NCBI RefSeq assembly: GCF_024204665.1 | Contig: NZ_CP100355.1 | Location: 3,205,451-3,269,450, forward strand | DNA: 64,000 nt | Direction of reading: 5' to 3' | DNA from: Natronosalvus rutilus | GTDB taxonomy: Archaea; Halobacteriota; Halobacteria; Halobacteriales; Natrialbaceae | In this document: piece after piece, positions 22,268 through 60,690 of the stretch | Position numbering within the stretch: the stretch's first letter is position 1 | How the letters are laid out: each line of letters begins with the position of its first letter | Notes under the pieces: generated by a model | What the model was told of the DNA's origin: nothing | Seen by the model: the letters and a program-made list of their open reading frames with translations, nothing else | Databases searched by the model: none | Made by a program: the position numbers and the translations under genes

Positions 22268-23167
22268 TTACCCGTAGTGGTCTCGCTCGACTCGCTCGTC
22301 GAATAGCCTGGCCAGGAGTGACGTCACCGGCCGCTCACGCTCGTCGCCGTCACCGAGAGTGATTCCGTCGACCCGGTCGACCGGACGCACCACCCACGTC
22401 GTGTTGGTAAGAAAGACCTCGTCAGCCTGGCGGACGTCCTCTGGCCGGAATCGTCCCTCGTCGATCGGAATCCCGGCGTCGGCTGCGAGTTCGAGGACGA
22501 CCCGACGAGTAATGCCGGGGAGGACCGCCCCCTCAGTCGTCGGCGTGTGCAGCCCGCCATCGTCGACGAAGAAAACGTTGCTCGTGGCCCCCTCGGCGAC
22601 GTCCCCCTCGAGGTCGCGAACGAGCGCCTCGTCGGCGTCGTGGAGTTCCTGTCTCGCGAGGATGCCGTTCAGGTAGTTGTGCGTTTTCGCGCCCGCGGGG
22701 AGCGCGGCGTCCGGAATTCGGCGCACTTTGACCGTCTGGAGCGTGGCCGGACCGTCCCACACCGACTCGCCCTCGAGGCCGCCCCTCGGGAGCGGTTTGA
22801 CGTACACCACGACCGTCGGGTCGACCTCGGGCCGGGGGGCGAGCGTGCCGGGCTGGACGCCGCGGGTGATCGACAGCCGGACGTAGGCGTCCGTGAGGTC
22901 GTTAGCAGCCAGGGTTGCCTCGATTCTATCGGCCAGTTCCTGGCGCGAGAGGCCGTGCTCGAGCCCGATCGCCTCGCAGGTTCGCTCGAGGCGGTCGGCG
23001 TGGGCCTCCCACTCGAAGATCGAACCGCCATAGGCCCGCAGGGTCTCGAACGCGCCGTCGCCATAGCGAAAGCCCCGATCGTCGACGCTGACGGTCGCCT
23101 CGGGGGCGGGGACGAGTTCGCCGTCGAGGTGATACAGGCGCTCGCTCGCGGGTTCGTCCTCAGTCAT
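22268..23167 (-). CDS. pabC: Aminotransferase class IV, likely aminodeoxychorismate lyase
   Basis: A PLP enzyme of fold type IV with 299 residues. The conserved SVDDRGFRYGDGAFETLRAY is near residue 27, the PLP-binding Lys is in AGAKTHNYL near residue 157, and EGATSNVFFV is near residue 188. The adjacent pabA and pabB genes favour 4-amino-4-deoxychorismate lyase, giving p-aminobenzoate, over branched-chain aminotransferase. The ATG at 23167 overlaps the last codons of a preceding 11-codon ORF in a tandem repeat (see findings). Confidence 0.87.
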   Translation of the reverse strand: MTEDEPASERLYHLDGELVPAPEATVSVDDRGFRYGDGAFETLRAYGGSIFEWEAHADRLERTCEAIGLEHGLSRQELADRIEATLAANDLTDAYVRLSITRGVQPGTLAPRPEVDPTVVVYVKPLPRGGLEGESVWDGPATLQTVKVRRIPDAALPAGAKTHNYLNGILARQELHDADEALVRDLEGDVAEGATSNVFFVDDGGLHTPTTEGAVLPGITRRVVLELAADAGIPIDEGRFRPEDVRQADEVFLTNTTWVVRPVDRVDGITLGDGDERERPVTSLLARLFDERVERDHYG

Positions 23168-23195
23168 CGTTACCCTCAGAGTTGTCTTTAGGCAT
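23160..23195 (-). other. 11-codon ORF 2 of the pabA-pabC relay
   Basis: A 36-base frame from an ATG at 23195 encodes MPKDNSEGNDD and stops at 23160. The ATG at 23167 of pabC lies inside its last codons. It is the second of two similar short frames in a 28-base tandem repeat. It may only serve translation coupling. Confidence 0.5.
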
Positions 23196-23235
23196 CGTTG
23201 CCCCCGGATTTGTTTTTAATCATCGTCACCCCCAG
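23165..23235. repeat. 28-base degenerate tandem repeat at pabA-pabC junction
   Basis: Copy 1 covers 23165-23192, copy 2 23193-23220 and a partial third copy 23221-23235; each begins CATCGT on the plus strand. On the coding strand each unit ends in a G-rich stretch followed by an ATG. Because 28 is not a multiple of three, each unit shifts the frame. Confidence 0.75.
23188..23223 (-). other. 11-codon ORF 1 of the pabA-pabC relay
   Basis: A frame from an ATG at 23223 encodes [11 protein letters not shown] and stops at 23188. The ATG lies inside the last codons of pabA, and ORF 2 starts inside its end. The similarity to ORF 2 follows from the tandem repeat. Whether it is translated is unknown. 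Confidence 0.5.
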
Positions 23236-23926
23236 CATCGTACTCGGCGGCGAAGGTACAGAACGTCCGGATCATCCGCGTGCCAACCTCGAGGGAGATG
23301 CGGTCGCCGCTCGCGTACGCTCGACTCGAGTGATCCGATTCCTCGTCCAACTCGTCGCCGGGTTCGCTATCGGTTGTCCCCGTCAGAATGCTCTCGGGGT
23401 GGAACTGGACGCCCAGGTGCGGGCGGTCGCGGTGGCGAACGGCCATCAACACGTCGCGCTCGTCCGTGGTCCACGCCGTCTCGAGCAGGTCGTCCGGAAG
23501 CGACTCCCGCTCGACGGCCAGCGAGTGGTACCGACCGACCCGGAGTCGCGCCGGGAGCCCCTCGAAGATTCCCTCGCCCGTGTGCTCGATCGTCGAGGGC
23601 TTACCGTGGACCACCTCCGGGGCGTGAACGACCGGCGCGCCGTTAGCCGCACACAGCGCCTGGTGGCCCAAGCAGACCCCGAGGGTGGGGTACGAGAGCT
23701 CGGCGAACAGGTCGGTCGTGACGCCCGCGTCGGCGGGCGTTCCGGGTCCTGGCGAGACGACGATGCCGGTCGGATCGAGTGCGCGGACGTCCTCGAGGGT
23801 GATCGCGTCGTTCCGGCGGACGACGACCTCGTCTGCGGCCTCCCCGACGTACTGGACGAGGTTGTAGACGAAGGAGTCGTAGTTGTCGACGACGAGGATG
23901 CGGGTCGCGCGATCGGAATCAGTCAT
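23216..23926 (-). CDS. pabA: Glutamine amidotransferase, aminodeoxychorismate synthase component II
   Basis: A class I glutamine amidotransferase of 236 residues that supplies ammonia to the synthase. The catalytic Cys is in LGVCLGHQ near residue 84 and the His in VQFHPES near 178. The opening [15 protein letters not shown] is typical of the PabA/TrpG family. The ATG at 23926 overlaps the pabB stop (ATGACTGA), so the two are co-translated. Because PabA and TrpG overlap in sequence, the folate role rests on neighbours. The tail ends Asp-rich before the repeat region. Confidence 0.88.
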
Positions 23927-25607
23927 TGCGATCACCTCTTGTTTCATTACCGGACTCACCGCCGCCGGTCTCGAGCGTCATCGCCGCCCGCTCGCCCAGC
24001 GCCGCGTCGATCGCGTTCAACAGAGCCTGCGCCTTCGCGAGCGTCTCGTCGTACTCGCGCCCGGGGTCGGAGTCGTGGACGATCCCGGCGCCCACCCGGA
24101 GGTGGTACGCCTCGGCGTGGCGGACGAGCGTTCGGATGACGATGTTGATCGTCGCCCGACCGTCGAACCCGAAGATGCCGACGCCGCCGGTGTACGGCCC
24201 GCGCCGGGTCGCCTCGAGTTCGTCGATGATCGCCATCGTCCGGGGCTTGGGTGCCCCCGTGATCGTCCCGCCGGGGAACGTCGCCGCGATCGCGTCGCCG
24301 AGGGTCGCGTCGGGTCGAAGGCGTCCGGTGACGTTCGAGACGAGGTGCATGACCTCGGAGTAGCGATCGACCCGGCGGTACTCCTCGACCTCGACGCTTC
24401 CGTAGGTACAGACCTTCCCGAGGTCGTTTCGCTCGAGGTCGACCAGCATCGCGTGTTCGGCGCGCTCCTTCTCGTCATCTTGGAGGTCGGCCTCGAGCGC
24501 CGCATCCGCCGCCGGGTCCTCACCTCGGGGACGGGTCCCGGCGATGGGTTCGGTGCGGACGAACGCGCCGTCGCGCTCGAGGAGGAGTTCCGGGCTCGCG
24601 CTCACCAGGTCCGTGGACCGTCCTTCGAGCAAACAGGAGTACGGGGCCGGGTTCACGGTCCGGAGCGCCTCGTAGGCGGCGACGGGATGGACCGCCGCGG
24701 GGGCGACGAGACGCTGTGAAATGTTCGCCTGGAAGGTGTCGCCGTCGCGAACGTACCGCTTGACCTGCCGAACACGGTCGGCGAACGCGTCCCGGCCGCA
24801 GGTGCTCTCGAAGGTCGCCTCAGCCGCGTCGACCGGTGGGGGGCCGGCGGTGAGGTCGCCCTCGAGCGCTCGTCGGGCGAGCGCGAGCGCCCGCGAGCGA
24901 GCTCGTTCGTAGGTCGCCTCGAGCGCCTCTATATCGCCCGCCGAATCTCCACCCTCGAGCGTCGACGCGTCGATCGACGGACAGGCCGTCACCCGGAGTC
25001 GGACCTCTTCGTCCGCGTCAGCCGGACACTCCCACGCCGCGAGTCGGTCGTACACGCCCACCTCGAGTCTGGGCAGCCCGCGGTCGTCGACGGCGCTTCC
25101 GGCCAGGTCCTCGAGTTCGCGGGCGACGTCGTAGGAGAGCCAACCGACGACGCCGCAGGGGTAGGGGACGTCGCAGTCGCCACGAACGAGCGACGTGCCC
25201 TCGAGCAGTCCCTCGAGGGCGGCGAGCGTCGGCGACTGTGACGCCGGCGTCGTGGTGGATCCGCTGTCGATCGCTGGCGGGTCGAGGTGCTCTGAACCCG
25301 ATGCCGACCGATCGCGACGCACCGCCGCATCCGGCCCGACCGTCAGCCGCTCGACGGGGTCGACTCCGAAGTAGCCCCAGCCCGGTTGGCCACCGGTCGT
25401 CTCCAGGAAGACGCCGGGAGCCGACTCGCGCCGAGCGCGGCGATAGGCGAGAAAAGGGTCGTCGACGGTGACGGCAACTTCGACGGGGAGTCGAATCTGG
25501 CTGGCTTCCCCCAGTCCAGGTGCGCGATCGTCGCCGGCATCGGTACGGGCCGTCCTGGCGGCGTCGAGGAACGCCTCCTCGTCCGTAACGACGCGCGGCT
25601 GGTTCAT
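23919..25607 (-). CDS. pabB: Aminodeoxychorismate (or anthranilate) synthase component I
   Basis: A 562-residue chorismate-utilising enzyme. The C-terminal catalytic region contains [12 protein letters not shown] near residue 311, the PIAGTRPRG motif and [10 protein letters not shown], which define the TrpE/PabB family. With an amidotransferase and a class IV aminotransferase following, aminodeoxychorismate synthase is more likely than TrpE, but this rests on context. The ATG at 25607 precedes [12 protein letters not shown]. The N-terminal half includes a Ser/Thr-rich loop typical of haloarchaeal proteins. Confidence 0.9.
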
Positions 25608-25764
25608 GCTCGAGTCGATGTGCGGGTGGCCTAACGCTTTTGCGGTTCTCGCGGCGTTTCGATTCCGCATCGGCTCGATCGCGCAGCGTTTCAGCCTCAC
25701 GGAGACTCGATCCCGCGTCGTCGCCGTCGCTCGAGGCAGAAAGGAAACCGAACAACGTGTCGAG

Positions 25765-39918: not shown

Positions 39919-40131
39919 TCACAGACCGGTGTACGAGAGGAACGCGTACCCCAGGAAGACGAACCCCAGCACGCCGCCAGACAGGGCGATGAGCCCGCCG
40001 ATAACCCGCATCGTGGTCGTCATGACCGTCGGATACTCCGGCTGGGGCTCGAGGTTGGCCACGAGCACGAACGCGAGTGCACTCGCTCCGAGGGCGAAAC
40101 AGCCGAACGTGAGAAACGCGAGCGTCCTCAT
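39919..40131 (-). CDS. Small two-helix membrane protein, 70 aa
   Basis: A 70-residue protein with two hydrophobic helices (about 5-26, AFLTFGCFALGASALAFVLVAN, and 42-64, VIGGLIALSGGVLGFVFLGYAF). No family is recognised. It lies 13 bases after the HTH gene at 40145, probably in the same transcript. Confidence 0.75.
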   Translation of the reverse strand: MRTLAFLTFGCFALGASALAFVLVANLEPQPEYPTVMTTTMRVIGGLIALSGGVLGFVFLGYAFLSYTGL

Positions 40132-40144
40132 CGAGGCGAGCGGG

Positions 40145-40558
40145 TCACGTCTCCGCCGAGCTATCGTACAGCCGTTCGAACTCCCACTCGCCGCGGATCA
40201 GTTCGTCGACGCCCTCGGTGAGCGTGACCTCGCCGAACACGGTCGCCCGATAGTACGTGTACAACCCGTCCTGATCACGTTCCGTGCGCTGGCGTTTTTC
40301 GAGGAGTCCCACGTCCACGAGTTCGTTGAGGTGGTAGTGGAGAGTGCTGTCGTCGACCCCGATCGCTTCCTCGAGTTCCTTGGGGCTCATGTCGCCGCCG
40401 TGGACGAGTCGGTACAGGATCTCGTAGCGGGTTCGGTGGCCGATGGCGGCGTGCATCGCGAGGTACTCCTCGAGGCGGAGGACACTCTGTTCCGGAAGCA
40501 GGTCTTCCGGGTCCTCCGGGGCGTCTCCGCCGGCCGCGTGCGCTCCATTGGTCGCCAT
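40145..40558 (-). CDS. ArsR-type winged-helix regulator
   Basis: A 137-residue HTH protein: after a Gly/Asp-rich start, LRLEEYLAMHAAIGHRTRYEILYRLV (about 27-52) leads to the recognition helix MSPKELEEAIGVDDSTLHYHLNELVDVGLLE. This resembles a winged helix of the ArsR/TrmB group. No metal-binding Cys is present, so a metal sensor is unlikely. It is divergent from the gene at 40656, which it may control. Confidence 0.85.
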   Translation of the reverse strand: MATNGAHAAGGDAPEDPEDLLPEQSVLRLEEYLAMHAAIGHRTRYEILYRLVHGGDMSPKELEEAIGVDDSTLHYHLNELVDVGLLEKRQRTERDQDGLYTYYRATVFGEVTLTEGVDELIRGEWEFERLYDSSAET

Positions 40559-60572: not shown

Positions 60573-60690
60573 TGTGTGTCGCCGCGAGCGCCGCCGGTGA
60601 CGGTATTGCTGGTTTCCCACGTCGCTCGTGTCGCCCGTCAGACGTCCCTCACGTCCCCCGTCACACGTCACTTCCCCATGAGCGCAGAAC

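Follow-up and report, generated by a model that had tools for sequence, protein, structure and literature searches.

How does a ribosome that has finished pabA arrive at pabC when 48 nt lie between the two genes? This question is raised by a 64-kb stretch of NZ_CP100355.1 (hereafter the window) from the haloarchaeon Natronosalvus rutilus (Natrialbaceae). Here the start of a vitamin-synthesis gene was very probably copied in tandem, and the duplication probably left pabA and pabC connected. Annotation pipelines would read the same junction as an uncoupled 48-nt gap.

The features of the locus are listed in Table 1. None of the NCBIfam models scored above cut-off on the pabC product, so the name pabC is taken from the operon context. 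The pabC ATG at 23167 is the single candidate start codon between the in-frame stop upstream and the conserved core, and by this measure the start assignment is not in doubt. The pabA stop is a TAA at 23218-23216 on the minus strand. An earlier note on this DNA had placed the pabA stop, the pabC ATG and two micro-ORFs between the genes, and its coordinates were exact, base for base. The note also described the same kind of overlap between pabB and pabA. That junction does read ATGACTGA, at 23926-23919, though a second ATG in the pabA frame, at 23947, precedes the one in the overlap, so the true pabA start is uncertain.

Table 1. Genes, micro-ORFs and repeat units of the pab locus in window coordinates.
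Feature	Coordinates	Strand	Description
pabB	23919..25613	-	Aminodeoxychorismate synthase component I; TIGR01824 PabB-clade2 above cut-off; 5' start provisional
pabA-like	23216..23926	-	Glutamine amidotransferase, TrpG/PabA family; TIGR00566 trpG_papA above cut-off; upstream of pabC
micro-ORF 1	23188..23223	-	11 codons; 8-nt overlap of its ATG with the pabA stop, ATGATTAA
micro-ORF 2	23160..23195	-	MPKDNSEGNDD*; 8-nt overlaps with micro-ORF 1 (ATGCCTAA) and pabC (ATGACTGA)
pabC-like	22268..23167	-	Branched-chain / D-amino-acid aminotransferase and aminodeoxychorismate lyase family
repeat unit 1	23206..23233	-	GGGGGTGACGATGATTAAAAACAAATCC; micro-ORF 1 ATG and the strongest SD-like stretch among the three units
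repeat unit 2	23178..23205	-	GGGGGCAACGATGCCTAAAGACAACTCT; micro-ORF 2 ATG and SD-like stretch
repeat unit 3	23150..23177	-	GAGGGTAACGATGACTGAGGACGAACCC; pabC start and SD-like stretch

The 28-base unit in 2.5 copies, with a G-rich stretch and an ATG, had been noticed before and was found again by TRF at 23165-23235 in minus-strand reading (score 86, the top of 88 rows in the window). Each unit joins a G-rich Shine-Dalgarno (SD)-like stretch to ACGATG and the opening codons of pabC. In register, units 1 and 2 are identical at 21/28 positions, units 2 and 3 at 19/28, and units 1 and 3 at 20/28. The self-shift score was 20; simulating the 64-kb window 120 times under a third-order Markov model never gave more than 19. 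When 1,470 gene starts (1.6 Mb of this genome) were ranked for start-containing tandem duplication, pabC came second; the top-ranked case, at a TTG, is probably a miscalled start. Further gene-start tandem duplications of this genome were weaker where inspected, and none of them lay at a coupled junction. Unit 3 is presumably the original copy. Elsewhere in the window, a 23-nt tandem repeat of 2.3 copies lies outside called genes at 60618-60669.

Read in the order pabA, micro-ORF 1, micro-ORF 2 and pabC, the chain has an overlap of -8 at each of its three junctions. The 48-nt gap is divisible by three, which returns pabC to the pabA frame after the shifts.

Seven other genomes of the genus were compared. 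The two closest species, G006 and G007, have pabC genes 95% and 94% identical to that of the window, respectively. Each has one micro-ORF. In G006 it reads MPKDKSGGNDD*, its ATG lies 2 nt past the pabA stop, a -8 overlap follows, and the gap is +30 nt. In G007 it reads MSKDNSEGNDV*, both links are -8, and the gap is +20 nt. The 28-nt unit was absent from the other five members. The comparison of copy number proposed in the earlier note thus gives 2 micro-ORFs in the window, 1 in each of the two sisters and no copy of the unit in the other genus members. Its suggestion that the array was built by duplication has strong support: the unit includes the pabC start, two sister species have one micro-ORF, and other relatives have a simple overlap. 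The array is real and specific to this clade, and it very probably derives from a gene start that was duplicated in tandem.

At fourfold sites the three species differ by 12-18%. The right half of micro-ORF 1 (AAATCCGGGGGC) is of the G006 type, and that of micro-ORF 2 (AACTCTGAGGGT) is of the G007 type. On the simplest reading, both unit types would predate the split of the three species and copies would have been lost later; recombination between species is an alternative that could also account for this pattern.

The array may have arisen as follows. In the ancestor of the three sister species, a -8 overlap of pabA and pabC (ATGNNTGA) would have been duplicated together with its SD-like stretch as a 28-nt unit. 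The ATG of each upstream copy would then open a short ORF that terminates within the ATGNNTRA of the copy that follows. Because 28 is 1 mod 3, a single overlap would have become a chain of -8 overlaps. By the same arithmetic, a duplicated -4 overlap needs a unit of 2 mod 3, as in the 17 nt and 14 nt from start to start at two other junctions (L011 and L122, below), and a unit that is a multiple of three extends the N-terminus. The array suggests a simple rule, in which a duplicated start/stop overlap preserves coupling when the unit length falls in the right mod 3 class. This rule is arithmetic, not evidence of selection.

What the chain would do can be judged from Haloferax volcanii, with the reserve that these coupling rules come from a different genus. 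In the passages on gene pairs drawn on here (Huber et al. 2019, PMC6728339; 2023, PMC10666635), all 9 of 9 overlapping pairs were strictly coupled, the downstream gene being fully dependent on translation of the upstream one, and gaps of 22-23 nt abolished re-initiation. The same passages give -8 as the third most common overlap class and a preferred one, and they describe re-initiation as less efficient at -8 than at shorter overlaps. If these rules apply, loss of the micro-ORFs would leave pabC stranded 48 nt past the pabA stop. With the micro-ORFs in place, a ribosome finishing pabA could pass to micro-ORF 1, micro-ORF 2 and pabC by successive re-initiation, and the relay would span a distance presumably too great for direct re-initiation. 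The micro-ORF peptides would be by-products. If the array is kept at all, it would be because one broken link would uncouple pabC.

The start signals are consistent with such a relay. All three window junctions carry an SD-like motif inside the upstream ORF, a feature that is common, not essential, in coupled pairs. SD-like pairing was -13.8 kcal/mol for micro-ORF 1, -8.6 for micro-ORF 2 and -6.1 for pabC; the medians for this genome were -8.25 at coupled internal starts and -2.7 at leading starts (these, like the junction and promoter statistics, rest on a home-made gene caller checked on the pab region only). Both micro-ORFs thus lie at or beyond the internal-start median, and pabC is somewhat weaker and still in the coupled-internal range. 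Every start lies within -8 to +6 nt of the preceding stop, the distance taken for coupling: -8/-8/-8 in the window, +2/-8 and -8/-8 in the sisters.

The termination-reinitiation chain put forward in the earlier note is the reading that the anatomy supports best: -8 overlaps, SD-like stretches, a clear pabC start, no detectable leaderless promoter and a 48-nt gap that is too long for direct coupling by the H. volcanii data. The function is what we infer from sequence, namely that the micro-ORFs are translated, that pabC depends on them and that their copy number may attenuate pabC. We consider it likely that the array works as a termination-reinitiation relay.

The survey of other haloarchaeal junctions bears on both this reading and its main rival. 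Among 148 linked pabA-pabC pairs, 142 had junctions between -16 and +8 nt, with -4 in 61, -8 in 43 and -16 in 17. A gap of at least 10 nt was found in only 6: the window, the two sisters, L011, L122 and L332. Micro-ORFs bridge 5 of these 6 (L002 by way of a +2 link); L332, with a gap of +13 nt, had no strict relay. The best four start-containing duplications among 116 junctions were those of the window, L002, L011 and L122, all of them gapped and relayed.

Two of these relays lie outside the sister group. L011 / L032 (G005, a fragmentary MAG of the same genus) has a 13-nt gap, GTGACGGAGGCGAACTCGTGA, with a 6-codon GTG-started ORF and a -4 overlap at either end; since the MAG is fragmentary, an indel error may be involved. 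L122 (G070, a single-contig genome of another genus) reads GTGACACCGAGACGATGA and has a 5-codon relay micro-ORF. Downstream of it, the pabC start of L122 carries 18-nt in-frame tandem repeats (MTDTETMTDTETMTDTDS...), which extend the N-terminus and are the multiple-of-three counterpart of the 28-nt duplication in the window. From the relays at the sisters, L011 and L122, short relays appear to have arisen about three times at the pabA-pabC junction.

The presence of a relay has to be weighed against chance. Genome-wide, relays at gapped junctions numbered 6 against 3.8 expected (p = 0.145), and relays are not enriched, which gives no reason to assume a dedicated relay system. When gaps were reshuffled between flanks drawn from pab junctions, a strict relay appeared by chance in 11-46% of cases, these flanks already carrying start/stop overlaps. 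A lower chance rate of 4-8% was set aside as inapplicable to such flanks. The presence of a relay is therefore weak evidence of selection and no proof. About 10 substitutions separate the four micro-ORFs of the window, G006 and G007, and none of them breaks the chain; on our inference this number is too few for significance or for a test of constraint.

The rival that survives best is a neutral duplication, in which pabC would initiate alone, through its own SD-like stretch or by ribosomes scanning from the pabA stop, and the micro-ORFs would be irrelevant. The pairing of -6.1 kcal/mol retained at the pabC ATG, the lack of genome-wide enrichment and the restriction of the array to three sister species all fit this reading. 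However, SD motifs in 5'-UTRs are reported not to drive de novo initiation in the H. volcanii passages cited above (PMC6728339, PMC10666635), gaps of 22-23 nt abolished re-initiation there, and the pabA-pabC junction is confined to -16 to +8 nt in 142 of 148 genomes. The earlier note had tied a neutral duplication to relatives lacking the repeat together with a pabC promoter of its own and no coupling. Relatives do lack the repeat, apart from the two close sisters; an own promoter without coupling was not seen, as far as sequence can tell. We regard the neutral reading as possible and do not favour it.

A second alternative places a basal promoter in the AT-rich duplicated stretch (ATTAAAAACAAAT in unit 1, CTAAAGACAA in unit 2), from which a pabC transcript with a short leader would be made. 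A weak promoter-like match of 4.8 bits does start about 57 nt upstream of pabC, and promoter activity is reported in the consulted text of PMC4213456 for the MIRU-bearing senX3-regX3 intergenic region. In contrast, no convincing leaderless promoter was found at pabC, where the score at the expected distance was 0.89 bits, the 7th percentile of leading genes, and the sister species have no comparable match, their best being 3.6 bits at -97 and 3.05 bits at -32. We think this reading improbable.

It is more doubtful still, and in our view very improbable, that the 11-residue peptides themselves have a function, such as that of a sensing leader peptide or of a small protein acting on folate synthesis. 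All four micro-ORFs have 11 codons and the pattern M-x-K-x-x-S-x-G-N-D-x, and they share this pattern because the copies have a common descent. About 8 of the 10 substitutions among them alter a residue, which speaks against peptide function, and the peptides look unconstrained. A leader-peptide attenuator was rejected as well: neither window peptide has a run of regulatory codons of the attenuator type, and the junction has no alternative RNA structure beyond that of shuffles (folding z = 0.27). Finally, short tandem repeats are sometimes misassembled, but a false duplication is hardly credible here, as any two copies are mismatched at 7-9 of 28 positions and the 28-nt unit is also present in two other genomes.

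Returning to the termination-reinitiation relay, we compared it with known systems. The window resembles the H. volcanii coupled pairs (Huber et al. 2019, PMC6728339; 2023, PMC10666635) in its -8 class, in the SD-like stretch within the upstream ORF, in its co-directed genes and in its haloarchaeal host. Unlike those pairs, it has three overlaps in series that stem from duplication, with 11-codon ORFs as links; the passages of the two papers drawn on here hold no description of micro-ORF chains. Termination-reinitiation at overlapping genes is known, and here it has probably been extended in series by a duplicated start. Our literature search found no papers on haloarchaeal pabC or on minicistrons.

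The nearest known architecture, as far as the cited excerpts go, is that of the mycobacterial MIRU at senX3-regX3 (Supply 1997, as cited in PMC12548453; PMC4213456). In both cases tandem repeats lie between co-directed genes, and a short ORF is coupled to the next gene by a start/stop overlap. Copy number also varies in both, the window having 2 micro-ORFs and each sister 1, which is a comparison between species. Unlike the 28-nt unit, the longer MIRUs (77 and 53 bp) are described in these excerpts as interspersed and seemingly mobile. A search of the 8 genus genomes allowing up to 3 mismatches found the 28-nt unit at the pab locus only, which ruled out a dispersed MIRU-like element. Because the unit is not dispersed and is derived from the pabC start, the array does not belong to the MIRU family. 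As in uORF coupling and the engineered bicistronic design (as outlined in the review PMC12548453), the short ORF would deliver a ribosome, not a protein. Unlike in those systems, the short ORFs of the window are in tandem, lie between two operon genes and come from natural duplication.

At this one junction, related archaea form a natural series with 0, 1 or 2 coupling micro-ORFs, in which the duplication step is still legible. The series could readily be used to ask how many times in a row an archaeal ribosome can re-initiate. Tentatively, the number of micro-ORFs might even act as an evolvable step-down dial, each unit passing on part of the terminating ribosomes. If so, 0, 1 or 2 micro-ORFs would set different PabC to PabA ratios in one operon, with promoter and enzyme unchanged.

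Short bridging ORFs were also observed at other places. In the window, at about 40115-40170 on the minus strand, a 6-codon ORF, VTRSPR*, spans the 13 nt between the genes of another pair with -4 overlaps; the number of such bridged pairs genome-wide is within chance expectation. At the pabA-pabC junction of L187 (G023), a 4-codon ORF starting with GTG spans a 7-nt gap and has a -4 overlap at either end.
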